Part shown: piece after piece, positions 6,472-34,192 of the stretch | How positions within the stretch are numbered: the first letter of the stretch is position 1 | Layout: every line of letters starts with the position of its first letter | Assembly (NCBI GenBank): GCA_937897005.1 | Contig: CALCOQ010000139.1 | Span: forward strand, 1-34,192 | Origin: an uncultured euryarchaeote | GTDB taxonomy: Archaea; Thermoplasmatota; Poseidoniia; Poseidoniales; Poseidoniaceae | Length of the DNA stretch: 34,192 nt | Direction: 5' to 3' | The notes under the pieces: generated by a model | Told to the model about the DNA's origin: nothing | The model's database searches: none | What the model saw: the letters and a program-made list of their open reading frames with translations, nothing else | Program-made: the position numbers and the translations under genes

Positions 6472-7761
6472 TCATGAGAGCAATGAGCCCCAACCCTTGA
6501 GGACCACGAACGCTGCTGCAGCCTCAGGCATCTCCATTACATCTCCTGCTGACCCTTCAGCATGGAATTCGCCAATACGGGTATTGATATCTTCAGCGTT
6601 GATTTCAATTTTCATTTTTCCATCCTGTGGCAATGCAACAGCCTCAGTCAATGGGTCGAATGGGTTGCCACCATCCGGGTCCAAGCGGTTGAGCGGGAAT
6701 TCAGTCACTCTCAATCCACATTTTCCATGTAGTGATGTTGGATATCTAATGACCCTGTGGCAGTCGATAGTGACTACTTCATCGGTTTCACCAGCACTGC
6801 CTAGTACAACCGCGGAATCATTCTGTAGAATATCGATGAATGCGTCTCTATAATAATTCGAATCACCACCCCTTCCTCCAAGCGCATTCAGATTACCTTC
6901 CTCCAGTTTCGCTCTTCGTGTTGGATGAGCAACAAGTTCTGCAATATCTTCGACAGCTTTCTTTCCACGACTCCGCTTCAGGCCACGAATTCTAGCGGAC
7001 CTCTTCAATGAATCAACATAAGTATCGATAATCAATTTCACTTCTTTCCCTTCCCCTTCTCTGACTTTATCCAATTTAGAAAGGGTCTGTGAAAGACCAG
7101 TTCGTAATCTGAGGGCCCAGCCGCTGGCATCTGAATCCGCCGAACGAGGTAGTAAGGAGGTGACGTCAACTCCATCCCCTCTGATATGTGATACCAATTC
7201 TCGTCTCGCTTCGCTATCAAGATGGGCGAGTTTCGGGTCGCGATAATGAAGATGAAAACCTCTGTGGCCGGAAAATGTCAATTGCAGGTATTTTTCTTCG
7301 AATCCGAACTCGGGTTCCAAGAAATCATTCCAGAGCCGCCATGCCTGTTCTCTGATCTGCTCAAGCATTCCGATGAAGTCCGTATCGACAACTCCTGGTA
7401 GATGATCACCATCGAGATCGAAAATCAAGTCAGCACCCAGCCATCCTTTCTCTTTCATTTTGTAGATGGTAGGATCTTTCCAATATGCTGTGCTGTAGAA
7501 TACGGAATGGGGTGTTCTATCAATCAGGTGATGTTTGATGCTGCTGGTATCGGGAAATCCAATATGCCTTTTTGGCACCCCTCCGCCAAATGGTAACAAC
7601 ATCCACTCTCTTGTTCTCAACCGTGGAGGGGTCCATGGGGTAAATGTCCGATAATGTTGTTCAAATCGGTGCGCGAATACAGCCCAGCCCTTGACCATGG
7701 AACATGCCCCCGGTCCCTCTCTGAGGCTGAGGGGTGATGAATGACGCGGTAAGGGCATCAA
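6472..7761 (-). CDS. priS: DNA primase small (catalytic) subunit; start could be internal at 7698
   Basis: 'LIFDLDGDH' catalytic motif, 'LQLTFSGHRGFHLHY', 'DCHRVIRYPTSLHGKCGLRV', all characteristic of archaeal/eukaryotic PriS. Confidence 0.93.
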   Translation of the reverse strand: MMPLPRHSSPLSLREGPGACSMVKGWAVFAHRFEQHYRTFTPWTPPRLRTREWMLLPFGGGVPKRHIGFPDTSSIKHHLIDRTPHSVFYSTAYWKDPTIYKMKEKGWLGADLIFDLDGDHLPGVVDTDFIGMLEQIREQAWRLWNDFLEPEFGFEEKYLQLTFSGHRGFHLHYRDPKLAHLDSEARRELVSHIRGDGVDVTSLLPRSADSDASGWALRLRTGLSQTLSKLDKVREGEGKEVKLIIDTYVDSLKRSARIRGLKRSRGKKAVEDIAELVAHPTRRAKLEEGNLNALGGRGGDSNYYRDAFIDILQNDSAVVLGSAGETDEVVTIDCHRVIRYPTSLHGKCGLRVTEFPLNRLDPDGGNPFDPLTEAVALPQDGKMKIEINAEDINTRIGEFHAEGSAGDVMEMPEAAAAFVVLKGWGSLLS

Positions 7762-8491: not shown

Positions 8492-9376
8492 TCAGACCTC
8501 TGAGCCAATGAATTGAATTCCTTCGGCATTGAAATCTGGATTTATCAATCCGATAGCCTGGCCTTGTTTCAAAAAGTGCTTGACTGAATCTCTTCCTTCC
8601 GGGCCATAATCTATTGTCCGTTGATTGACATACATACTGACGAATCTCTCATTTGTCGCATCATCTATTCCACGTCCCCATGATTTGGCGAAAGCCAATG
8701 CCTGCTCAGGGTTTGAAATTGCATACTCTATGCTTTGTCTGGTCCATCTCGTGATTTCACTCATTATTTCCTCACCAAGATCCCTTCTGACAATATTTCC
8801 ACCAAGAGGCATCGGCCATCCATTGTTCTCCTTTGCCCACCATACCCCAAGGTCCAGATGAACTTCAAGGCCATGTTCTCTATAGGTCAATTGACCTTCA
8901 TGGATAATCAATCCCGCATCTACCCGTCCTTCAAGTACCGCTTCGAAGATCTCATCGAATGCAATGACTTCTGTCTGGACATCTCCCCAAGCCAACCTAA
9001 GGCCTAGATACGCACTTGTTTTCAACCCCGGAATTGCAATCAGGCCACTCTTCACATCATTCAAAGTCTTGCCTTCGAGTGCAACCACCATCGGCCCATA
9101 TCCCTCCCCCATACTGGCTCCACAATTCATCAATGCATATTCTTGAGATACCTCGGGAAATGAATGGATGCTGATGGCACTGACCTCAAGTTCATTGTTC
9201 ATGGCACGGTGATTCAAGGTCTCGATATCCTGCAATTCGTGAATGAATGAATATCCCGGAGTATTGATCAGACCAGTGGTCAGAGCGTGGAACATGAATG
9301 CATCATCTGGATCGGGGGAATGCCCAATTCTAATGATTCTTCTACCGCCCTCATCCACAGGGAAAGATACCACCAT
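8492..9376 (-). CDS. mqnD: 1,4-dihydroxy-6-naphthoate synthase (futalosine pathway)
   Basis: 'IGHSPDPDDAFMFHAL', 'DIETLNHRA...EVSAISIHSFPEV', 'GASMGEGYGPMVV' typical of MqnD. Confidence 0.9.
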   Translation of the reverse strand: MVVSFPVDEGGRRIIRIGHSPDPDDAFMFHALTTGLINTPGYSFIHELQDIETLNHRAMNNELEVSAISIHSFPEVSQEYALMNCGASMGEGYGPMVVALEGKTLNDVKSGLIAIPGLKTSAYLGLRLAWGDVQTEVIAFDEIFEAVLEGRVDAGLIIHEGQLTYREHGLEVHLDLGVWWAKENNGWPMPLGGNIVRRDLGEEIMSEITRWTRQSIEYAISNPEQALAFAKSWGRGIDDATNERFVSMYVNQRTIDYGPEGRDSVKHFLKQGQAIGLINPDFNAEGIQFIGSEV

Positions 9377-9428
9377 GGGTCGGCGAATCAGGGTTTCTAC
9401 TTCAAGTTAGGCGATGAGTATTGAGAGA

Positions 9429-9440
9429 AACAATATTGTT
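9429..9440. promoter_or_regulatory. Perfect 12-bp palindrome AACAATATTGTT in the divergent mqnD/beta-propeller intergenic region; candidate operator
   Basis: Read directly from sequence. Confidence 0.35.
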
Positions 9441-9532
9441 GATTTTTCGGTGAATGTGATGCTATTTTGGGAAAGATTCTATTTCAGTCCACGTGCTGGG
9501 GTATCGAGGGAACTACAGTGGTAGCGACGAGA

Positions 9533-12010
9533 ATGTCCACACTCATGCTGGTATCAACCAGTTTCTTACTACTCACAGGACTAGCCTGTGCAGTCACTCC
9601 GAGTGGCCTTGGTTATGTTGGAGTTCACACCGCTGGGCAGCAGCATTTTGATGAGACGCTATCGGTTGCCATCTCTCCTGATGAATCAATTCTAGCTACT
9701 GGGACTGAAGGATATGTTGTCATCACCAGTATGGAGACGCGCCAGGTTCTGAAAATCATAAATGCCGAGGATGATGCAACAGTTATCGAGTTCTCTCCTG
9801 ATGGAGACTATCTTGTGGTTGGTCTCAAATCAGATAGTCCTCAGACCCGCGCTCTTCAAATGTACTCAACGAGCGATTGGAGTGAGTATGGGGATGGATT
9901 CAACAATGGGAAGAACCCCCAAGACATCTCATTTTCAGCAGATGGCGCGAAAATATTGGTCCAAGGGCAGAATAAAGATGCATTTGAATTGAGTTTTCCA
10001 GATCTGGAAGTCATTGGACATCTTGAGAATCTACATACTGACATACTCCAGTGCAGTGATTATGGTTCCGGAGGTTCCATCGCCATCACTGGTGGGTTGG
10101 ATGGAATGGTTGCCCTCTGGAACATGTCAGAACACTCCTTGGTATCTTCCATGGAGATTGAGGATTCAGAGATTGTAGATTGTCTAATAAGTCCAGATTC
10201 TTTGAGTTATTCAGTTCTGATCAATAATGGATATCTGCGAACATTCTGGTTGAATGGGACCATGGTAGATGATTCTGAAAAATATTTCATCGAGGCCAAA
10301 CAGATCAAATGGAGTGATGATGGGGATCATATTTTTGTTCTCGAGTCCTATTTGCTGCCATCATTACAACGATTGAGAGCCACGGACTGGGTGATTGATG
10401 AGATAACTAACTTCGGGCATCAAGTCGGGGTATTTGATATCACGACTGATGCAAAGACCATAGTGACAAGTACCGGTACAATACACGTGGGCATCTACCA
10501 ATCGAATTTCAAGGCACAGGGTCATGGAGAAGATGGACCGGATTTCGATGGCGATGGAATACCGGATTCCTTGGATGAAGATGATGATGGCGATGGTATC
10601 AATGATATCTATGATGTGAGTTGTTCCACAGACATTGATTGTGCCAAGTCAGCAGATTCTGAATACATCAGAAGTATTGAATTCAAGATCGAGACGCAGA
10701 GTTTGATCATCAGTGATAGTGTCACATTCAACAGATACGATTCAAATGCTTTGAGAAATCTGACCACCTCCCTATTGTCGGATGACAATCGGATAGATGT
10801 CGATGAATTGACTTGGATGTCAATAGCCATGTGTGATAATATCATTGAAAGGGATGTTGTTGACCAATGGCAGACACTGATAGAGATAGAGGGAGCACAA
10901 TTGACAAATGGATCTCTTACGTGTGACCCGATAGAGGGTATTTCTTCGAATGATTTCGGCGATCTCAGCCTTCGTGCAACATTTACCTGGGTCACCAAAT
11001 TTGATTTATCCAGCACTCCTTTGGCCCCTTATAATTTCACTATCAAAGGAATCGCAGAAGCCTCCACTGGAAGCTCTGCCCTTATCGCTCCTCAATTTCC
11101 AGTCAGTTTGGTCTTCACCAATTCAATGGCCACTGATTCATCTATCGCCCTGTGGAATAACGGAGATGGGGCTCGTGTGATTTTCATGGATGAAGTTCCA
11201 GCCACAGGTCCGGGTGTTGATGATCTGGTAATAGCCTTCATAATGGCCAATTTATGGATTCCAATAGGCAGTATCTTGGGAATCTTAGGCGGTGTGGCCC
11301 TCATTGTCAAGCAGAACAAGACTATCTCTTTCGCTCTTCTGACGAGTTCAGGGGAAAGTTTGGACGAAGATGCAGATGATGCCGAAGAGGATGCTGATGA
11401 CTCATATGATGACTACGAAGAATATGATGAGTATGAAGACTCTATTGTTGAAGGAGAGGATGATGTATGGACTCAAGAATCAGAACTATCTCCACCAAAG
11501 CCATCTCGTGGACCACCCCGTAGTTCTACCCAAAGGGCTGCTAAAATTCCTTATCATTTAGATGCAGATGAGCCGGTCAAGGCAAGACGCCGCAGAGTCA
11601 GTGATAAACAACCTACAGGCTCCAAGCGTAAAACGCTCGTCGAATCAGCGGATGATGAGGAGGAATATGATTACGGCCTCGATGGCGTGTATCATGATGC
11701 GGCATGGGAGACTGAATATGACGAGTTTGAGCCTCCGAAGGTTCGAAAGGTCAAGAAGGCCGAGGAAGAAATGGAAGAACCCGCAGAAAAGAGCAAGGGA
11801 CGTAGAAAGGTGAAGCGACGAAATCCCAAGAAATCAAAGAAGAAGGCCACGCCTGACAAAGAAGTTGTGGCCAAGAAGGTCGTGGCCTCCAAGAAACGTA
11901 TCAGGAAGTCTCCAGAACCCACAAAGAGTGAGCCAGCAGAGCCGCCAGATGATGAGGACTCAGCCATGGACAAGGCGCTTGGAATGTTGACTGGTTCAAA
12001 GGATGATTGA
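9533..12010 (+). CDS. Secreted/membrane-anchored WD40-like beta-propeller protein with TSP3-like Ca-binding repeat, C-terminal TM helix and charged tail (ORF opens at 9467; ATG with signal peptide at 9533)
   Basis: Signal peptide 'MSTLMLVSTSFLLLTGLACAV'; propeller-like 'SVAISPDESILATGTEGYVVI', 'VIEFSPDGDYLVVG'; 'DFDGDGIPDSLDEDDDGDGINDIYD'; TM 'IPIGSILGILGGVALIV'; acidic then Lys/Arg-rich tail. Confidence 0.85.
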   Translation: MSTLMLVSTSFLLLTGLACAVTPSGLGYVGVHTAGQQHFDETLSVAISPDESILATGTEGYVVITSMETRQVLKIINAEDDATVIEFSPDGDYLVVGLKSDSPQTRALQMYSTSDWSEYGDGFNNGKNPQDISFSADGAKILVQGQNKDAFELSFPDLEVIGHLENLHTDILQCSDYGSGGSIAITGGLDGMVALWNMSEHSLVSSMEIEDSEIVDCLISPDSLSYSVLINNGYLRTFWLNGTMVDDSEKYFIEAKQIKWSDDGDHIFVLESYLLPSLQRLRATDWVIDEITNFGHQVGVFDITTDAKTIVTSTGTIHVGIYQSNFKAQGHGEDGPDFDGDGIPDSLDEDDDGDGINDIYDVSCSTDIDCAKSADSEYIRSIEFKIETQSLIISDSVTFNRYDSNALRNLTTSLLSDDNRIDVDELTWMSIAMCDNIIERDVVDQWQTLIEIEGAQLTNGSLTCDPIEGISSNDFGDLSLRATFTWVTKFDLSSTPLAPYNFTIKGIAEASTGSSALIAPQFPVSLVFTNSMATDSSIALWNNGDGARVIFMDEVPATGPGVDDLVIAFIMANLWIPIGSILGILGGVALIVKQNKTISFALLTSSGESLDEDADDAEEDADDSYDDYEEYDEYEDSIVEGEDDVWTQESELSPPKPSRGPPRSSTQRAAKIPYHLDADEPVKARRRRVSDKQPTGSKRKTLVESADDEEEYDYGLDGVYHDAAWETEYDEFEPPKVRKVKKAEEEMEEPAEKSKGRRKVKRRNPKKSKKKATPDKEVVAKKVVASKKRIRKSPEPTKSEPAEPPDDEDSAMDKALGMLTGSKDD
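10543..10614 (+). repeat. Thrombospondin type-3-like calcium-binding repeat segment within the beta-propeller protein
   Basis: Encodes 'DFDGDGIPDSLDEDDDGDGINDIYD'. Confidence 0.75.
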
Positions 12011-22373: not shown

Positions 22374-23900
22374 ATGATGACTCAGCCCGCCAAAGCCAAA
22401 CGTGGCATTCCAGCAAAATCAGATTTCACTGAATGGTATCCATTCATGGTAGAGGCTGCAGAATTGGTCGATAAGAGATATCCTATCAAAGGCATGGATG
22501 TCTGGAGACCATATGGTTGGAAAACGATGCGCCTGATCGATGATGTCACCCATGGAGAGATGGAGAGAACCGAACACGAGGAAGTAAGATTCCCCCTCTT
22601 GATACCCGAGAATCTTTTGGAGAAGGAGAATGTGTTGGTCGCAAGGCTCCAGCGAGCACGGGAGGAAGGAGTGAACCCCGATGAACTGAGAGACGAGGAA
22701 GAGGATGCTGGTTTCAAGAAAGAAGTGTATTGGGTGAAACATGCTGGCGATAATGATCTGGATGTTCCGATGTTCTTGCGCCCAACTTCTGAAACTGCCA
22801 TTTATACTCTGTTTCCTCTATGGATCAGAAGCCATGCTGACCTTCCACTGAAGACATATCAGATCGTCAACACCTTTCGTTATGAGACAAAGCAGACTCG
22901 TTCCTTCATCAGGGTCCGCGAGATACATTTCTTTGAGGCACATACTGCCCATATAGACGAGGATTGTGCATCTAGACAAATAGAAGAAGACCTCGAGATA
23001 GTGAGACGAATAATGGATGCTCTTTGTCTACCTGTCCTAATGGCAAAACGGCCTGTTTGGGATACATTTCCAGGTGCATGGTACACAATCGGCATAGATG
23101 TAGTAATGCCAAATGGAAGAACATTACAAGTAGCAAGCTGTCATCATTATAGAGATCAATGGGCCAAAGCATTTGACATCAAATATGAGGGTGAAAATGG
23201 AGAATTCGAGTATTGTCATCAGACGACATATGGTATGTCGGAAAGATTGCTTGGGGCAGTTGTCGGGATGCATGGAGATGATTCCGGATTGATAATGCCT
23301 CCCCGTATTGCACCTATACAGGCCATTGTGATTCCTGTTCTGAAGAAAGGCTCAGAACAGTTGGTAGTGGATGAAGCCAGAGCATTGTTGGCAGAATTGA
23401 AGGATGCTGGCATTCGCTGCCGTATCGATGAACGCGACTTGAGGCCCGGTCAGAAATACTATGATTGGGAGATCAAAGGAGTCCCACTCAGGTTGGAATT
23501 AGGTACCCGAGATATTGAGAATGCTACAGTATTTGCAGCAAAACGTACCGGAGGAAAGACTCCATTACCAAGAAATGATATCATTTCATCTGTAAAATTA
23601 CAATTGGCTGAGGTCGAAGCTGAATTGAAGTCTCGGGCCTCAATGCACATGGAGGGCAGAGTCAAACCTCTACCAAAATTGATTCAATCTGAAACGGGAT
23701 GGAGTCTGGAAGAGGACCTCGAGGAGGGGATTGTTCACGAGATTGCCTTCGATGGTAGTGATGCCGATGCGGAAGTGATTGAACGTACTACCGGCTTGTC
23801 TTTCCTAGGTGATGCTGTGGAACAATATACTGAGGAGCGACCGTGTGCAGTGACCCGTAAGCCCACGAAGCGAAGAGTCTGGTTAGCGAGAACCTATTGA
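22374..23900 (+). CDS. proS: Prolyl-tRNA synthetase, archaeal/eukaryotic type
   Basis: 'DFTEWYPFMVEAAELVDKRYPIKGMDVWRPYGWKTMRLID', 'LRPTSETAIYTLFPLWIRSHADLPLK', 'QTRSFIRVREIHFFEAHTAH', 'TTYGMSERLLGAVVGMHGDDSGLIMPPRIAPIQ'; GAGGTGG upstream. Confidence 0.97.
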   Translation: MMTQPAKAKRGIPAKSDFTEWYPFMVEAAELVDKRYPIKGMDVWRPYGWKTMRLIDDVTHGEMERTEHEEVRFPLLIPENLLEKENVLVARLQRAREEGVNPDELRDEEEDAGFKKEVYWVKHAGDNDLDVPMFLRPTSETAIYTLFPLWIRSHADLPLKTYQIVNTFRYETKQTRSFIRVREIHFFEAHTAHIDEDCASRQIEEDLEIVRRIMDALCLPVLMAKRPVWDTFPGAWYTIGIDVVMPNGRTLQVASCHHYRDQWAKAFDIKYEGENGEFEYCHQTTYGMSERLLGAVVGMHGDDSGLIMPPRIAPIQAIVIPVLKKGSEQLVVDEARALLAELKDAGIRCRIDERDLRPGQKYYDWEIKGVPLRLELGTRDIENATVFAAKRTGGKTPLPRNDIISSVKLQLAEVEAELKSRASMHMEGRVKPLPKLIQSETGWSLEEDLEEGIVHEIAFDGSDADAEVIERTTGLSFLGDAVEQYTEERPCAVTRKPTKRRVWLARTY

Positions 23901-25155: not shown

Positions 25156-25184
25156 GATGAAGTGCTCATGATTGGCACCGTTTG

Positions 25185-25793
25185 ATGGCCAAGGATCCAG
25201 ATGAACTGGTAATGGCGGGTAGCGTACCCACTAATCATTCGCGACATCCACTGGAAGCTTTACATCGCCAGATCAGCTTCGTGATGATTGGAACCATTTT
25301 TCTGTTCGCATTATTCGTCTGGTCAATTCTGAATGGAATATCCTCAGGTTTTGGTTGGGTTGCCATACTCCCCTGTATCATTCTGGGAATGATATGGTCT
25401 GGATTCAGGAGTCGCAAGGAATGGGCTTATCCATTCGCAGTCGGGCTCAATGCCGCAGCCATCGTTCTCTTTGGGTTGATGTCAATCATCTTCTTGTTGA
25501 GTGGAGATGCACTTTCCATGTTGCTTGGTATCTTACTGTTGTTCACTGCCATCGCTTCAACAAGGAGATTGAACATAATGCGAAATACTTTGTTCAAGGC
25601 TTGGTATCTAGGATTGGAGATTCCAATGTATGGAATGAATCTACAACAAGGAGAGATTTACGCCTCTTGCCCACATTGCTCATCAATTCTAGCCATCAAG
25701 CCAGCACGGTTATCTCAAGATGATAAATGTCCATCATGCGGCGACAACCTCGTATCCGAAGAAAGCGCTCAGAGAGTGAAAGAAGAAGAGTGA
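25185..25793 (+). CDS. Membrane protein with C-terminal zinc ribbon; unknown function
   Basis: Several hydrophobic segments followed by 'CPHCSSILAIKPARLSQDDKCPSCGDNLV'. Confidence 0.75.
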   Translation: MAKDPDELVMAGSVPTNHSRHPLEALHRQISFVMIGTIFLFALFVWSILNGISSGFGWVAILPCIILGMIWSGFRSRKEWAYPFAVGLNAAAIVLFGLMSIIFLLSGDALSMLLGILLLFTAIASTRRLNIMRNTLFKAWYLGLEIPMYGMNLQQGEIYASCPHCSSILAIKPARLSQDDKCPSCGDNLVSEESAQRVKEEE

Positions 25794-25795
25794 AC

Positions 25796-26821
25796 TCAGC
25801 GAGATGCAAGAGTCAGGTTCTTCCACATGTCTTCTGGAACTTCCATTGAAAGTCGCAATCCACCCATCGCTCCAAGGCGTACTGGGTCGTCGACAACGTG
25901 GACATTGACATCACCCAGATCCGAAAGTCGCTCTTCGATGAGTGCACCAAGTCCACGGATTCCAGAACCTCCACCGGCTAGAACCATGTTTTTACGAAAA
26001 GAATCATGATATTCGGGGTTTGAGGAGGCAACCAAACCTTTGATATGCTCGACGAGTGGGTCTATAATGCTCTCACAGGCAAATTGGATGCACTCGGTTA
26101 TGTCTAATGTCATGGCTTTTCCTTCGATGGAGAAATCAACCATCACGGGATCGTCTGGTTGCGATGCGCCGGTGAACGAATGCTCTTCCTTCCATCTGCG
26201 AGCCATGTCCTTTGTCACTTGTGCACCACTGTACTTGATCTGCACCTGTTCAATGATCTGATTGTCAATGTAATCTCCAGCATATTGGCTGTGTACCTGA
26301 TCGATTGGTTCAGGAATGGTTCCGTAAACACGACAGATATCTGCGGTTCCTGCACCGATATCTATGACCAAGGTGTGTTCAAGCATATCCAATGCATATG
26401 CGACAGCGAATGGCTCAGATATGATCATGCATGCATTGACAGTTCCTGCTGCGGCATCGAAGATGTAAGTCTTGTCGACATAGGATGCTTCGGCTGGAGC
26501 ACCAATGACTGCTACCACTCGGTCATAATCTTCTGGGTCTGATAATCCAATGAGGTGGGTGATGAAATGGGCGATGAATTCACGATCTTTCTGAGAATCC
26601 TTGATGACCCCATGTTCAAGGGGGCGGAAAAGATCCAAAGCCAAACGATTCTTCAAAGCATCTTCACCAAAAAGAACATCTCGCTTGAGGAAATTACGTG
26701 CGATATGGTCCTTCGGAGTACCAATAACGGTCAACTCTTCTTGCTCATGGTTTTCGCTCGATACCATCACTGATCTGAAGGTGCCAAGATCCACTCCGAT
26801 GTACAGTACTTTGTCAGCCAT
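25796..26821 (-). CDS. Actin-superfamily ATPase, MreB/MamK-like
   Basis: 'LYIGVDLGTFRSVMVSS' phosphate 1, 'VVAVIGAPAEASYVDKTYIFDAAAGTVNACMIISEPFAVAYALD', 'TLVIDIGAGTADICRVYGTIPEPIDQV' phosphate 2, 'NMVLAGGGSGIRGLGALIEERLSDLGDVNVHVVDDPVRLGAMGGLRLS' adenosine motif. Confidence 0.9.
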   Translation of the reverse strand: MADKVLYIGVDLGTFRSVMVSSENHEQEELTVIGTPKDHIARNFLKRDVLFGEDALKNRLALDLFRPLEHGVIKDSQKDREFIAHFITHLIGLSDPEDYDRVVAVIGAPAEASYVDKTYIFDAAAGTVNACMIISEPFAVAYALDMLEHTLVIDIGAGTADICRVYGTIPEPIDQVHSQYAGDYIDNQIIEQVQIKYSGAQVTKDMARRWKEEHSFTGASQPDDPVMVDFSIEGKAMTLDITECIQFACESIIDPLVEHIKGLVASSNPEYHDSFRKNMVLAGGGSGIRGLGALIEERLSDLGDVNVHVVDDPVRLGAMGGLRLSMEVPEDMWKNLTLASR

Positions 26822-26891: not shown

Positions 26892-27899
26892 TCAAATCCA
26901 ATTCTGACAATTTGAACAGTACCATGCAGAATACTCAGGATAGAGTTCGGCCATAGAGCCACAACCAGTGCATTCTTTCACAGCGCTTCCACCGAAAATA
27001 CTCATGACGATACGCACATGATCAGCATCACCAATACCTAATTGTTCGCGCATGGCCCACAGCATCTGGTCCTCACTAGGTGAGATGATTCCATCTTCAA
27101 GAACTATTTCTACTGCAGCTTGGTAATCCTCGATCATTCTGACATCACGAGCATCCATCGAAACACCACCCTTCTCAGCGATGATGTCTTGGCCACCAGG
27201 ATCATCAACAAAGATGACCAGGGATGCAGGGTTCAACTCAGAGTTCTTCATTTCAAACAGGACTCCCGAACCCTCACTTGAAGCATAAACATATTTGGAT
27301 AATCTGTTGATGATGCTTGCGATATTCCTAGCAGTATCCTCAATGGTTCTACCCCGTCTCCAACCCCGACTATCATCTTCATCGTAGCCATAGAATTCAG
27401 TGCCAAGACCCGGATATTCAAGTCTGATCTCTTCTCCACCATCGAACTCATTATTCAACAAGGTGATCGATGCAACTACTGTATTACCAATATTGTCATC
27501 ATCATCAAAGGAAATCATCAGCGGCTTTCGCTCTTCACTGGCCACATTGAAAGTTCCTTGCAACCCACTCATCCACTTGTCCTCCAAACGCTGAAGGCTG
27601 GCCTCCTGTTCCTTAGACAGGTCCTTGTTGATTCCAAGAACACCTCGTAATTGTCCACTTTCCATCTCTTGCTGGAATTCATCGATCAATTCAGCATCCC
27701 GACGATGATTGGGAGGAGGGCCCGTTTTTGTCTGAACATGGTCTGGATCTCTCCATTCATAGGAACATTTGGAACATATAAAAAAACCTTCCAGAGAAGA
27801 GGGGTCTGCCTCTCCTCTACAACGTGGACAATCGCCCTCTTCATCCACGTTCAGGTTCTCGCCTGCAGCCTTTCTACCACGCCGGATACCCATTCCCAT
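26892..27899 (-). CDS. Zinc-ribbon protein with C-terminal TerB-like domain; unknown function (ORF extends to 28025 but start at 27899 avoids overlap with the thiolase)
   Basis: N-terminal 'CPRCRGEADPSSLEGFFICSKCSYEW', TerB-like 'AVEIVLEDGIISPSEDQMLWAMREQLGIGDADHVRIVMSIFG', C-terminal 'CTGCGSMAELYPEYSAWYCSNCQNWI'. Confidence 0.75.
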   Translation of the reverse strand: MGMGIRRGRKAAGENLNVDEEGDCPRCRGEADPSSLEGFFICSKCSYEWRDPDHVQTKTGPPPNHRRDAELIDEFQQEMESGQLRGVLGINKDLSKEQEASLQRLEDKWMSGLQGTFNVASEERKPLMISFDDDDNIGNTVVASITLLNNEFDGGEEIRLEYPGLGTEFYGYDEDDSRGWRRGRTIEDTARNIASIINRLSKYVYASSEGSGVLFEMKNSELNPASLVIFVDDPGGQDIIAEKGGVSMDARDVRMIEDYQAAVEIVLEDGIISPSEDQMLWAMREQLGIGDADHVRIVMSIFGGSAVKECTGCGSMAELYPEYSAWYCSNCQNWI

Positions 27900-27948: not shown

Positions 27949-29133
27949 TCAAATCTTCTGCAGTATGGTGGAAATACCCATCCCTCCACCGATACACATG
28001 CTGGCCAAGGCATACTCTCCCCCAAGCCTGTCCAACAAAGATGCTGCTTTGCCAGTTATTCTAGCGCCACTGGCACCCAAAGGGTGGCCGATGGCCAATG
28101 CGCCACCATCAATATTCAATCGTTCATCATCATCGGAAACGCCTAGATCGTCAATCACTGCCAATGATTGCGCAGAAAAAGCCTCATTGAGTTCAATGAC
28201 GTCGATATCGTCCAAATTCAATCCTGCTCTAGCGAGAGCCTTGTTTGATGCTGGGACTGGACCAATGCCCATGATGTCCGGTGGAACTCCTGCGACTGCG
28301 GTAGAAATGATTCGAGCCATTGGCCGGATTCCTCTGCTCTCGGCGTATTCCTCGGAACAGATGACCGTGAATGCTGCACCATCAGTCAAGGGAGAAGAAG
28401 TGGCGGCTGTGACTGAACCATCCTTGAGGAAGGCCGGAGATAAAGAAGCCATCATCTCCAATGTGGTATCAGCCCGAATGCATCCATCAGCAGACACAGA
28501 TATTCCATCATCTGAAATACTGATCAATTCATTATCGAAAAAACCAGACTCCTTTGCAGATGCTGCCTTCTGATGGCTTCTGAGAGCGAATTCCTCCTGC
28601 CTTGGTCGATCTATGGAATGTGAACGAGCAAGATTTTCTGCAGTCAGCCCCATGTTGATGTAAGCATCAGGATAATCTGCTTCAATAGTTGGATGTAGAT
28701 CCCTGCTCCAACCGCCACGTTTCACTAAAGACATCGTTTCTACACCTCCGCAAAGAAAAACCTCTCCTGATCCAATAGCGATGGCACCAGTAGCATCGTG
28801 GATTGATTGCATGGATGAGCCGCATAGGCGGTTGGTGGTGACTCCCGGGACGCTGGAGGGTAATCCACTGAGATAGGTGACCATCCGTCCGAGGTTCAAC
28901 CCTTGAACCCCTTCGGGATAAGCACATCCAAGCATCAGATCCTCAATATCTTCAATCTCCACTCCGCTCTGCGCAATTGCCTGTTCAATCACTTGCGAGG
29001 CCATATCCTCGGGTCTGACTGCCGCCAGGGCACCCTTGTGAGCTCGATGGAATGGCGAGCGCACATAGCCGATGATGACTGCGCCCATGAGCAATCGAGA
29101 AGGTGTAGGCTGTTCAACATCACGGTCATTCAA
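27949..29133 (-). CDS. Acetyl-CoA acyltransferase / 3-ketoacyl-CoA thiolase, bacterial-type (TTG start at 29133 or ATG at 29088)
   Basis: 'TTNRLCGSSMQSIHDATGAIAIG' active-site Cys, 'ELNEAFSAQSLAV', 'GGALAIGHPLGASGARI', 'ALASMCIGGGMGISTIL'. Confidence 0.93.
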   Translation of the reverse strand: MNDRDVEQPTPSRLLMGAVIIGYVRSPFHRAHKGALAAVRPEDMASQVIEQAIAQSGVEIEDIEDLMLGCAYPEGVQGLNLGRMVTYLSGLPSSVPGVTTNRLCGSSMQSIHDATGAIAIGSGEVFLCGGVETMSLVKRGGWSRDLHPTIEADYPDAYINMGLTAENLARSHSIDRPRQEEFALRSHQKAASAKESGFFDNELISISDDGISVSADGCIRADTTLEMMASLSPAFLKDGSVTAATSSPLTDGAAFTVICSEEYAESRGIRPMARIISTAVAGVPPDIMGIGPVPASNKALARAGLNLDDIDVIELNEAFSAQSLAVIDDLGVSDDDERLNIDGGALAIGHPLGASGARITGKAASLLDRLGGEYALASMCIGGGMGISTILQKI

Positions 29134-29860: not shown

Positions 29861-30193
29861 TCACTGAAACTTTCCGCATGATACGCAGAATTCCATATCG
29901 CCATCCAATGGTTCCTCACAGAATGAACAGTTGTCGGCGCCTCCTTGGGCAGATTTCCTCTGAATGGTATCAGAAGTGGCAATCAACCTCACAGCCTTCT
30001 CCAATTCTACTGGGTCGTCACCCGCATCCTTCAGTTCCTTCCAGCGGTAATTGAAAGCAATGGCCTCTTGGATGGCTGACTCTATCTGTAGACGTCGCCT
30101 ATCACGTTCAACAGGGTCACTGATTTCATCACTCTTCTCCAACTCTGTCTGAAGATGCCGTTGGAACTCATCCACTGTAGGATGTTCGCCCAT
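29861..30193 (-). CDS. Small protein with C-terminal zinc ribbon; unknown function
   Basis: 110-aa ORF ending 'CSFCEEPLDGDMEFCVSCGKFQ', convergent with kptA, coding strand consistent with neighbours. Confidence 0.6.
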   Translation of the reverse strand: MGEHPTVDEFQRHLQTELEKSDEISDPVERDRRRLQIESAIQEAIAFNYRWKELKDAGDDPVELEKAVRLIATSDTIQRKSAQGGADNCSFCEEPLDGDMEFCVSCGKFQ

Positions 30194-30265
30194 GAGTGGG
30201 CCAATAGGGATTCAGTCTTCAGACCACCGGCGAATGACTTTGAGGAACAATCCCATGCGGAGTAC

Positions 30266-31057
30266 ATGGAAGGCCGACGGGTTCTCATCAAACTAGGAGG
30301 TGGATTGATCACGTTCAAGGATGAACCATGCAAGGTGCGTTCAGATATTCTCACTGCATGTGCTGAAAGAATCTCCAATATCGTTGAAATGGGATGGAGG
30401 CCGATAATTGTTCACGGTGCTGGTGGATTCGGGCACTTGAGAGCCAAGCAATATTCCTTGAGTTCGGGAAGGGATGAGATGATTGCAGGGCAGGATGAAG
30501 CGGTGGAATTGGTCAGAAAAGAAATGCTTGATCTCAATTCTCAAGTCTGCAAAGCACTCATCGATGTGGGATTGAAGGTTTCCTCCCATCCTCCGCATAC
30601 ATGGTCTAGAGGTACAGGGCAGGGTCTTGTCGGCTCATTGCAGCGTTTTGAAGCCGATGATGGAGTCATCCCCATCACCTATGGGGATGTCAATGACTGC
30701 GATGGGCCGGAAGGTTTCGGAATCTTATCTGGTGATCATCTAATGGAGAGGTTGGCCACCATAGAGGGAGTATCCAAGGCTATTTTCGCACTGTTTGGGG
30801 TTGATGGAGTCATGTCCACTCCTCCCGATTCGGAGCAGCAAGGCATCCTACTGGAGAAAATTGACTCAGAGAGTGATTTCATTGCTTCACATGATTCCAA
30901 GATTGATGTCACTGGGGGTATTACTCTCAAAGTTGCATGTGCCAGAAGAATGGCTGCAGGTGGAATAGATGTGTGGATGGTGAATGGCGAGTATCCAGAC
31001 CGGATTGTCGACTCCTTGTTGCAGACAGGCACTATTGGAACCAATGTCATCGGTTGA
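30266..31057 (+). CDS. Isopentenyl phosphate kinase (ORF opens at 30155; start at 30266 gives a typical N-terminus)
   Basis: 'MEGRRVLIKLGGGLITFKDEPCKVRSDILTACAERISNIVEMGWRPIIVHGAGGFGHLRAKQY', 'ITYGDVNDCDGPEGFGILSGDHLMERLA', 'GVDGVMSTPP', 'DVTGGITLKV' typical of archaeal IPK (amino acid kinase fold). Confidence 0.92.
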   Translation: MEGRRVLIKLGGGLITFKDEPCKVRSDILTACAERISNIVEMGWRPIIVHGAGGFGHLRAKQYSLSSGRDEMIAGQDEAVELVRKEMLDLNSQVCKALIDVGLKVSSHPPHTWSRGTGQGLVGSLQRFEADDGVIPITYGDVNDCDGPEGFGILSGDHLMERLATIEGVSKAIFALFGVDGVMSTPPDSEQQGILLEKIDSESDFIASHDSKIDVTGGITLKVACARRMAAGGIDVWMVNGEYPDRIVDSLLQTGTIGTNVIG

Positions 31058-31097: not shown

Positions 31098-32861
31098 ATG
31101 CGAATGATGGGCATAGTCATGGTGGATTGGGAATCAACTGAATCGCACCCGCTACAAGCGCATGATTCAGCCCAAGCAGCTATGATGGAAGAGTTCGTCA
31201 TACAGGTGGATGAACTTGATAACAGGGTTGGAGGACAAACCAAACTGACTGCTCATCATGGTGCTGGAGCCCTCCATCGAGCCTTCTCTGTGCTGGTGTT
31301 CGATTCAAACGACAGACTATTGCTGCAGAAACGCTCTTCTGACAAGATAACATTTCCCGGTGTATGGGCCAATTCCTGCTGTTCTCATCCATTGGACAAT
31401 GATACTGAGAGAGGAGGTTTTCATTGCTCTATCCTAGCAGCGATCAGGAAGATGGAACAGGAACTCGGGGTTGATCCTTCAACATTGGCAGTGGATGATT
31501 TTACAGCTGCCTCTAGGATGTTGTATTGGTCGCGCAGTGATGACGAATGGGTGGAGAAGGAACTGGATCATATTCTCATTCTACGCAAAGACATCAGTTG
31601 CAGTCCGAATCCTAACGAAATCGAAGAATTGCGGTGGTTCGGCAGAGATGAGTTTGAAGCATTCATGAAATCTTTCAATGCAGACGATTCACAAACACAG
31701 AATGGTGAACAGAAAGTCATCGCTCCGTGGTTCAAATTGATCGTGGACAACCTTCTCAGTGATTGGTGGGATGATCTCGGCTCTATCACTGATGATGGTA
31801 AGATACATTGTTTCGGAAGACTGGATCTGGGCGAATTTGAGAAGCCAGAACCTGAGAATCTGGATGCTGCTATTTCCAGATGCAGGCCAAAGGTTGAGAG
31901 GATAATCATGGATGCCCTGTCGAAGAGTGGAGTTGGCCGTTTACGTCGAGCCATGATACATCTATTGGAAGGTGGAGGGAAAAGAGTAAGAGCTACTATT
32001 CCAAGACTTGTTGGGGAAGCACTCGAGACTGGTCGGAGTGATTACTCTGAGCATGAATTGGTTGGTGCTTCTTTGGAGATCATTCATAATTTCACATTGG
32101 TGCATGATGATATCATGGATGATGATGATATTAGACGCGGTAGGCCATCAGTCCATGTAGAATATGACATGCCAACCGCCATCAATGCTGGTGATGCAAT
32201 GCTGGCGATAGGTTTTGAGATACTAGTTGGAGAACCAGGTGAGTTGGATGGTATCGGGGCAAGGCATCTAGAGCAGGTGGTTAGAGCCATTTCGGGAATG
32301 GTCAGAGGAGTTTCCGAGGGCCAACAACTCGATATCGCCTTTGAGAATGAAGAGAATGTCGGGACTCAGGAATACCTTCGGATGATTGAAGGTAAAACTG
32401 CTATTATGTTCAAAACCGCAGCAGAACTAGGGGCGCTACTCAGCGACTCCAGCCAAGATATCATCGACATATGCTCTAGGTGGGGCAGAGAGATGGGGAT
32501 GTGCTTCCAACTGATGGATGATCTGATCGATGTTCTAAGTGATGGTGAGACATTAGGCAAACCAAGAGGAAGTGACATCGCTCAAGGAAAGAGGACTTTG
32601 ATGGTATTACATGCTCTTGAACAGGGAGGTGATGATGCAAAAACTCTCAACTCCATCCTTGGTAATGGTGAGTCTGCAACTCAGGAAGATATCGATACTG
32701 CAATAGTCATTCTGAAAAGGTGTGGCTCTATTGAACACGCCAGAGAAATGGCTGCTTCCCATCATCAAGCAGCCCATGCTGCTCTGGACGAATTGCCATT
32801 CTGGGTAGAATTGACTGCCCTGAGGGAACTTACTGACTGGCAAGTCAGGAGAATATCATGA
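31098..32861 (+). CDS. Fusion protein: type I isopentenyl-diphosphate isomerase (Nudix) plus polyprenyl/geranylgeranyl diphosphate synthase
   Basis: One uninterrupted 587-aa ORF. N-term 'HRAFSVLVFDSNDRLLLQKRSSDKITFPGVWANSCCSHPL' (IDI type I); C-term 'GGGKRVRATIPRLVGEAL', 'LVHDDIMDDDDIRRGRPSVH', 'FQLMDDLIDVLSD' (trans-prenyltransferase FARM/SARM). Confidence 0.95.
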   Translation: MRMMGIVMVDWESTESHPLQAHDSAQAAMMEEFVIQVDELDNRVGGQTKLTAHHGAGALHRAFSVLVFDSNDRLLLQKRSSDKITFPGVWANSCCSHPLDNDTERGGFHCSILAAIRKMEQELGVDPSTLAVDDFTAASRMLYWSRSDDEWVEKELDHILILRKDISCSPNPNEIEELRWFGRDEFEAFMKSFNADDSQTQNGEQKVIAPWFKLIVDNLLSDWWDDLGSITDDGKIHCFGRLDLGEFEKPEPENLDAAISRCRPKVERIIMDALSKSGVGRLRRAMIHLLEGGGKRVRATIPRLVGEALETGRSDYSEHELVGASLEIIHNFTLVHDDIMDDDDIRRGRPSVHVEYDMPTAINAGDAMLAIGFEILVGEPGELDGIGARHLEQVVRAISGMVRGVSEGQQLDIAFENEENVGTQEYLRMIEGKTAIMFKTAAELGALLSDSSQDIIDICSRWGREMGMCFQLMDDLIDVLSDGETLGKPRGSDIAQGKRTLMVLHALEQGGDDAKTLNSILGNGESATQEDIDTAIVILKRCGSIEHAREMAASHHQAAHAALDELPFWVELTALRELTDWQVRRIS

Positions 32862-32883: not shown

Positions 32884-34192
32884 TCAATCGGTGTAATACT
32901 CTTCATCGGGAACATCTGCTTTGAGACCCTTCCTTTGGCGAATTTTCCCAACTGTCTTCTCGAACAGTTGAGGGGGTAGAATATCAAATCCACAGTTCTC
33001 GCTGTTCCACACAGCACGTCCTTGACTTGCAGCTCGGATATCGTTTGAGAAGCCAAAGGTTTCAGCAACTGGAACTGTTCCGACCACAGTAGTGACCTCT
33101 CCATCAGCAGGCATATCTTCAATCACTCCGCGCCTGTTCGATATCTCTCTTGAGACTCCACCCAACCAGTCATTAGGAACGCTGACGAACATCTTCTGCA
33201 TCGGCTCCATGATAACCGGACGTGCTCTTAGACAAGCACCCTTGATTGAATTGCGTACGGCTGGTATGGTCTGGGCAGGGCCACGGTGAATTGCGTCCTC
33301 GTGCAACTTCGCATCGACAAGACGGATAAACATCCCCATCATGGGTTCTTCAGCGATTGGACCACGCTTACAGACAGCATTGAAAGCCTCGATTATCAAT
33401 TCTCGAGTCTCGTGTAGATTCTGAATTCCCTTGGTATCATTGACGAGAACATTGGTTCCATTGATGGCATATATCTTACGCATCAGATCCCTGTCCATTC
33501 CATCGAATTCTCCGAACTTGTTTCCTACTTCCTTGGCATCCTTGTTGCGAACGGTTCCATTTCCGAAATGTCCTTCTCTGAGTGCCTGTATGACTTCCAG
33601 AGGAAATTTCTCAACCTCTACGTAGAACCTGTTGTGCCGGTTTGGAGACTTTCCTTCAAATGCATGTCCTTTGTTATGGGACTCTACCGACTCGCGGTAA
33701 ACGACGATCGGTTCGCTGACCTTGACCTTGATTCCCTGTTCCTCCTCGATTCTGTAGGTAGTGATCTCAAGATGTAACTCACCCATTCCAGCCAATAGTG
33801 CTTCACCGGTCTCTTGGTTGGTAGTGACTACGAGACTGGCATCAGCCTTGGCCAGAGAGCGTAGAGCATCAATGAACTTGGGTAGGTCCTTCATCGACCG
33901 AGGCTCAACAGCAACTGTGACGACTGGTTCGGAATAGTGGCGAATCGCTTCGAATGGCGTGAAGTCCTTATCTCGTGAGATGGTTACTCCAGCAGCTGCT
34001 GAACGGATTCCGGTCAATGCTGCGATATTTCCTGCTACTACTGAGGGTACCGAGATGCGGTCACTGCCGACCATCATGCTGACTTGTTGTACTCTTTCGG
34101 CCTTAATTGCACCTAGAGCCCATACACTCTCTCCTTGAGTGACGACTCCGGAATAGATTCGTCCCACTGCAACCTCCCCTGCATGTGGATCC
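32884..34192 (-). CDS. fusA: Translation elongation factor EF-2, C-terminal part (N-terminus lies beyond the window)
   Basis: Reading frame continues upstream to the window edge ('DPHAGEVAVGRIYSGVV'); 'VEPRSMKDLPKF', diphthamide region 'LVDAKLHEDAIHRGPAQTIPAVR', 'EPMQKMFVSVPNDWLGGVSREISNRRGVIEDM'. Confidence 0.96.
   Translation of the reverse strand, partial: DPHAGEVAVGRIYSGVVTQGESVWALGAIKAERVQQVSMMVGSDRISVPSVVAGNIAALTGIRSAAAGVTISRDKDFTPFEAIRHYSEPVVTVAVEPRSMKDLPKFIDALRSLAKADASLVVTTNQETGEALLAGMGELHLEITTYRIEEEQGIKVKVSEPIVVYRESVESHNKGHAFEGKSPNRHNRFYVEVEKFPLEVIQALREGHFGNGTVRNKDAKEVGNKFGEFDGMDRDLMRKIYAINGTNVLVNDTKGIQNLHETRELIIEAFNAVCKRGPIAEEPMMGMFIRLVDAKLHEDAIHRGPAQTIPAVRNSIKGACLRARPVIMEPMQKMFVSVPNDWLGGVSREISNRRGVIEDMPADGEVTTVVGTVPVAETFGFSNDIRAASQGRAVWNSENCGFDILPPQLFEKTVGKIRQRKGLKADVPDEEYYTD

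Follow-up and report, generated by a model that had tools for sequence, protein, structure and literature searches.

MamK-family actins with conserved partner genes in a euryarchaeal lineage: a candidate two-actin filament system

The locus and the family of its actin

The window, i.e. the whole stretch of 34,192 nucleotides analysed, encodes on its minus strand a 341-aa protein with an ATG start (25796..26821), hereafter paralog A, which is a MamK-family actin according to family searches and an AlphaFold model. The sequence-only reading had singled out this open reading frame, and all five segments that it quoted are found in the translation. Directly upstream, on the same strand and after a gap of 70 bp, we observe a gene (26892..27899) for a 335-aa protein whose Cys-rich ends resemble zinc ribbons and which includes a stretch of weak TerB similarity (Pfam TerB, E=0.006); its start at 27899 was set by alignment with relatives, the open reading frame as called beginning at 28025. 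On the other side, a plus-strand gene convergent with A (25182..25793) encodes 203 aa; its product has hydrophobic segments and, at the C-terminus, a Cys-rich region (CPHC...CPSC), and Pfam gives no more than weak zinc-ribbon matches for it. This neighbor is moderately conserved, being found beside A in many, not all, genomes with 26-57% identity.

As read earlier from the letters alone, the gene sits in an archaeal block. EF-2 (aEF-2, 32884-34167, cut short by the edge of the window), PriS (6472-7761), and isopentenyl phosphate kinase (30155-31057) are all present, along with an archaeal-type ProS (22374-23900), CoaBC, an RNA 2'-phosphotransferase, and a fused IPP isomerase-prenyl synthase. 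The gene order around A is kept in more than 30 related genomes, one of them single-contig. Together, the archaeal neighbors and this synteny indicate that the contig is not chimeric and that the gene is not a contaminant; the concern that the contig might be chimeric or bacterial is thus settled, the locus of the second paralog described below being in the archaeal chromosome as well.

Some other features of these loci are worth recording. The fused gene (31098-32861, plus strand) is a 587-aa open reading frame in which an IPP isomerase (residues 34-215) precedes a polyprenyl diphosphate synthase (residues 261-585). A WD40-type beta-propeller protein of 847 aa with eukaryote-like matches is encoded at 9467-12010 (plus strand), also in the archaeal chromosome. 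In the single-contig genome (G015, L035:7436-8457), a frameshift near codon 153 interrupts A while the locus is otherwise intact, which is either a sequencing error or a recent pseudogene.

The best-scoring family for A in NCBIfam is MamK (NF040964), with a full-length match (358.7 bits, E=2.6e-107, residues 6-337 of 341 against profile positions 1-331 of 335). This score does not reach the curated cut-off of 400 bits, which is exceeded in none of the 195 genomes surveyed in the order, so the model labels these archaeal proteins only below its cut-off. The other NCBIfam models score far lower and do not reach their cut-offs either: BeeR (NF053558) gives 204.6 bits (E=2.1e-60, cut-off 530 bits), the MreB models give 81.6 and 71.7 bits (E ~5e-23, cut-offs 293-366 bits), and salactin (NF053533) gives 57.6 bits (E=1e-15, cut-off 400). 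In a phmmer search of the PDB, MamK (5ljw/5ljv) comes first at ~1e-74 over residues 4-336, with 39% identity to Magnetospirillum MamK, followed by BeeR (8r2n, 7e-43) and MreB (1e-12). The collinear resemblance to MamK that had been proposed is therefore borne out, as is the preference for MamK over MreB, DnaK, PilM/FtsA, and the crenactin/Ta0583-type proteins.

An AlphaFold2 model, which had been suggested as a check, was made from an alignment of 27 MamK relatives (pLDDT 91.8, pTM 0.87), and A is predicted to have the actin fold. The best PDB match to this model is the double-helical MamK filament 5ljv (TM 0.89/0.94, rmsd 2.0). The catalytic residues equivalent to Glu143 and Asp161 of MamK are invariant in 34 A sequences and in 15 sequences of the second paralog; in A itself they are Glu136 and Asp154.

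Another reading is that A is an MreB- or salactin-like actin for shape or segregation, with no special link to MamK. Indeed, two Pfam models score above their gathering scores, the broad MreB_Mbl model (83.9 bits) and, below it, salactin PF25229 (50.6 bits, gathering score 27.1, E=2e-13), and MamK is the nearest subfamily of salactin (PMC10746226). Nevertheless, the NCBIfam MamK model leads by 277 bits over MreB and by ~300 bits over salactin, and MamK filaments top the fold search. The first strand of A begins at residue 5 in the model, which leaves no room for an N-terminal extension carrying an MreB-type membrane helix, and neither mreC/D nor rodZ was found among the neighbor genes examined. 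Salactin, volactin, and crenactin are, like A, archaeal actin-fold proteins, but A matches them far more weakly than MamK (Pfam Actin PF00022, 8e-9; volactin, 2e-6; crenactin/Ta0583-type models not competitive). We consider this reading improbable.

A second paralog and the conserved partner genes

A genome search revealed a second MamK-family actin, paralog B, on a different contig of the same genome (G000:C320:5985-6989). B is 42.5% identical to A and sits between the genes for FtsY and GGGP synthase; PyrF, PurQ/L, and aCPSF1 are also encoded close by, which identifies the region as archaeal chromosome. This second paralog and the conserved partners had been overlooked by the sequence-only reading.

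We surveyed 195 genomes of the order, among them families f1 and f2; such a survey had been proposed as a follow-up. The distribution of archaellin and the missing chemotaxis genes, which agree with PMC6461757, lead us to infer that the order is Poseidoniales (MGII), f1 Poseidoniaceae, and f2 Thalassarchaeaceae. In each of the 97 listed f1 genomes the MamK family is strongly matched, mostly twice; two f1 genomes of 71-78% completeness had no MamK-family match in a separate search. Strong matches occur in only 22 f2 genomes, belonging to genera g15, g17, g19, and g22, and the remaining f2 genomes give weak matches (~1e-5), about the level expected of the broader actin/Hsp70 family. A is 73-87% identical across the family, and B is found in nearly all of the same genomes.

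The zinc-ribbon/TerB-like gene precedes A on the same strand, with gaps of 51-237 bp, in each of the 30 loci in which it adjoins A; in three genomes of one genus it lies ~2 kb away on the opposite strand. It is present in 20 of the 22 actin-bearing f2 genomes, the two exceptions having no A-level matches, and it is absent from all 45 actin-less relatives searched.

In 14 of 15 loci, the gene after B on the same strand encodes a coiled coil, with gaps of 18-106 bp and one of 592 bp; in one genus (L046, L072) the coiled-coil gene has been relocated away from B. The protein is 421 aa long (~420 aa in relatives) and shows a clear 3.5-residue hydrophobic periodicity. Its full-length form is confined to actin-bearing genomes. 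Roughly half of the genomes without the actins retain a version of ~135-185 aa, which matches residues ~20-160 only and occupies the same syntenic place beside GGGP synthase. Residues ~200-330, where conservation of the full-length protein is highest, are missing from this short version; this segment, being both the best conserved and lost where the actins are lost, is a candidate for actin binding.

One Thalassarchaeaceae-like clade has lost both actins and the zinc-ribbon gene while keeping the shortened coiled coil. In a ProS tree, all actin-less genera tested fall into one clade (support 100/100), which makes the joint loss a single event in a clade of smaller genomes and the shared absence weak evidence of functional linkage. 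ProS itself is missing from five genomes, four of which were scored actin-less; since ProS is essential, these may have assembly gaps, and the genes missing from them are not evidence. Phylogenetic profiling as strong proof of linkage was thus set aside.

Phylogeny and the relatives of A and B

The contig scan behind the trees covered the best 80 of 526 relatives; sampling is biased and the root uncertain, and Asgard, most bacterial phyla, salactin, and labelled Mad28 sequences lie outside this sample. Two trees were used, both without MreB, one of 74 rows and one of 63 rows that includes BeeR and three viral contigs. A tree with an MreB outgroup had placed BeeR among the B sequences, which we regard as a long-branch effect.

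In both trees, A forms one clade (100/100) and B another, and the two are sisters (100/99). As judged from the sequences, the duplication that gave A and B took place in the ancestor of the lineage, presumably Poseidoniales/Marine Group II (MGII). Two MamK-like proteins from elsewhere in the Thermoplasmatota join the A+B clade (95/90; 88/84 when the outgroup is included), and the MamK-like proteins of Nitrospirota are placed between this archaeal group and the classical MamK clade. The nearest relatives in the tree are MamK-like actins of Nitrospirota and other Thermoplasmatota (L155, L157, L165-L193, G260, G269). A phylogeny had been suggested as a check. The family scores speak against an ordinary MreB; in the trees, A lies outside the classical MamK clade, which excludes both A and B with support of 100/100 in the first tree and 95/89 in the second, with the outgroup.

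An origin of A and B from plasmids or phages was also considered and rejected: the plasmid and phage collections gave MreB only, and viral MamK-like actins group apart. The latter are deep-branching proteins from three IMG/VR contigs of 273, 114, and 50 kb classed as viral (L221, L222, L223), which do not group with A or B.

The genes around the relatives differ from those around A and B. In the two Nitrospirota loci read in detail (L157:4944-8149, L155:1193-3257), the MamK-like actin gene overlaps or abuts a peptidoglycan amidase gene, and in L157 it is followed by a receiver-SPOR gene; this suggests that MamK-like actins of bacteria without magnetosomes act at the cell envelope or in division. 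In G260, from another Thermoplasmatota family (L066:5120-11660), the gene of a MamK-like actin (8934-9968) forms part of a chemotaxis operon with the order CheW, CheY, CheA, CheD, actin, 341-aa protein, CheC-like, where CheY, CheD, and CheC were assigned by reading; the actin occurs in one of the 12 genomes of this order. These actins are single-copy in nearly all cases, unlike A and B.

Is A then a true MamK, derived from magnetotactic bacteria and positioning a magnetosome-like organelle? Its best family match is MamK and its closest solved fold is the MamK filament, with which it shares the catalytic residues. However, A falls short of the curated cut-off, as do the proteins of all 195 genomes surveyed in the order, the classical MamK clade excludes it, it is duplicated, and its partners are different. 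Around A and B, the genes examined include no mam gene, whereas MamH is seen near MamK in the control Paramagnetospirillum locus, and the sampled Nitrospirota relatives lie in non-magnetosome contexts. This makes a true MamK highly improbable. Of the earlier reading, the affinity to MamK thus stands, while the positioning of an organelle by analogy with magnetosomes is not supported, given the position outside the classical clade, the lack of mam genes among the genes examined, and relatives in amidase/SPOR and chemotaxis operons. The presence of MamK-like actins in archaea and in bacterial non-magnetosome loci means that "MamK-like" should not be read as "magnetosome".

Several Desulfobacterota and related genomes (L105, L107, L124, L125, L141, L143, L149, L150, L154) carry two nearby MamK genes. 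The classical clade contains Desulfobacterota pairs, and the loci examined are not recognizable magnetosome clusters, L105 for instance being flanked by YgiQ and Usp.

A possible two-actin filament system

The explanation that we favor, with some reservation, is an archaeal filament system made of two actins and a coiled coil. A, a member of the MamK superfamily, would form filaments in an ATP-driven manner and work together with B. Membership of the MamK family and the intact catalytic residues make ATP-driven filament formation very likely for these sequences, and we are confident that both A and B would polymerize, into separate or mixed filaments. That the two act jointly is probable. The coiled coil would cross-link the B filament or serve as its adaptor, most likely by way of residues ~200-330, and the zinc-ribbon/TerB-like protein would be a regulator or adaptor of A; as judged from gene position and conservation, we lean slightly towards such adaptor roles for both partners. 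Several observations count against the model: neither partner has a recognized actin-binding domain, the partner genes have been displaced in some genomes, the joint loss is a single event, and A and B are on different contigs.

Another reading is that A and B are functionally unrelated, i.e. two independent single-actin systems from one duplication; in its favor are their separate loci, their different partner genes, and their identity of only 43%. Against this, both paralogs are retained in nearly all genomes and a single branch lost the two, and MamK/Mad28 pairs, which also combine two actins, can hetero-polymerize (PMC12748827). We hold such independence to be rather unlikely, though it deserves more weight than the other alternatives.

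The whole system might act inside the cell as a scaffold that supports its shape or polarity or positions a cargo, serving neither magnetosomes nor a chemosensory array. As to what it serves, shape or polarity is our tentative guess, and the positioning of DNA or other cargo a doubtful one.

It could also be supposed that the actins organize the archaellum or its polar cap. All 12 f1 genomes tested have both archaellin and the actins, archaellin is found in 14 of the 22 actin-bearing f2 genomes, and the distant relative G260 has its MamK homolog inside a chemotaxis operon. Nevertheless, g17 (4/4) and g22 have actins without archaellin, and g14 (5/5) and g21 (3/3) archaellin without actin. Archaellin and the actins thus each occur without the other, which argues against an obligate link. 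These archaea have no identifiable chemotaxis genes (PMC6461757), and CheW was found in none of 54 genomes of the order, which excludes a chemosensory-array link within it despite the operon of the distant relative. An archaellar role is accordingly unlikely.

Among described systems, the nearest working analogue of the proposed two-actin system would be that of Desulfovibrio magneticus RS-1, a network of MamK, Mad28, and coiled-coil Mad proteins (PMC12748827, PMC12713370). Deep-branching magnetotactic bacteria have two actins, MamK and Mad28, together with coiled-coil proteins (PMC12748827), a combination that the proposed system would resemble. The RS-1 system, however, serves magnetosome chains, and A and B do not make up a MamK/Mad28 pair but are each other's sisters in our tree, which has no Mad28. 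BeeR from Verrucomicrobiota (8r2n, PMC11929497) is likewise MamK-related, occurs in non-magnetotactic hosts, and forms ATP-dependent filaments, but is marked by an N-terminal extension of 30-50 aa that A lacks.

Our literature search on archaeal MamK/actins and on the Poseidoniales/MGII cytoskeleton found no description of a two-actin MamK-like system; a 2009 analysis had placed some archaeal proteins among mainly bacterial MamK and ParM branches (PMC2651865). What is new is the occurrence of MamK-family actins in archaea in duplicate, with new partners and outside a magnetosome setting. We speculate that MamK-type actins are an old and widespread non-magnetosome cytoskeleton from which the magnetosome MamK was recruited later, and of which these archaea might run a two-actin version with dedicated partners. 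The deep MamK-like branches make the origin of MamK testable. The host lineage, presumably Marine Group II, is one of the most abundant archaeal groups in the surface ocean. Its MamK-family actin, which is duplicated, close to universal, and accompanied by conserved partners, offers a concrete, expressible four-protein test system, pointing to an undescribed archaeal internal skeleton.

Two further observations concern single proteins. In G269 (L065:9128-12279), a 5-Mb genome with 7% contamination in which the lineage of the contig is uncertain, a MamK-like actin scoring 435 bits, above the curated MamK cut-off, is followed by a gene for a 618-aa coiled coil. Like B, this actin is thus adjoined by a coiled-coil gene, although the 618-aa and 421-aa proteins are not alignable and have no detectable homology. 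Finally, the residue of A equivalent to position 278 of MamK is D, N, or E; MamK A278D is a non-polymerizing mutant (title of 5ljw), and the analogous MreB S283D is monomeric (PMC4051119). The idea that A is a natural non-polymerizer was rejected, bacterial MamKs also showing E, P, N, S, or V at this position.
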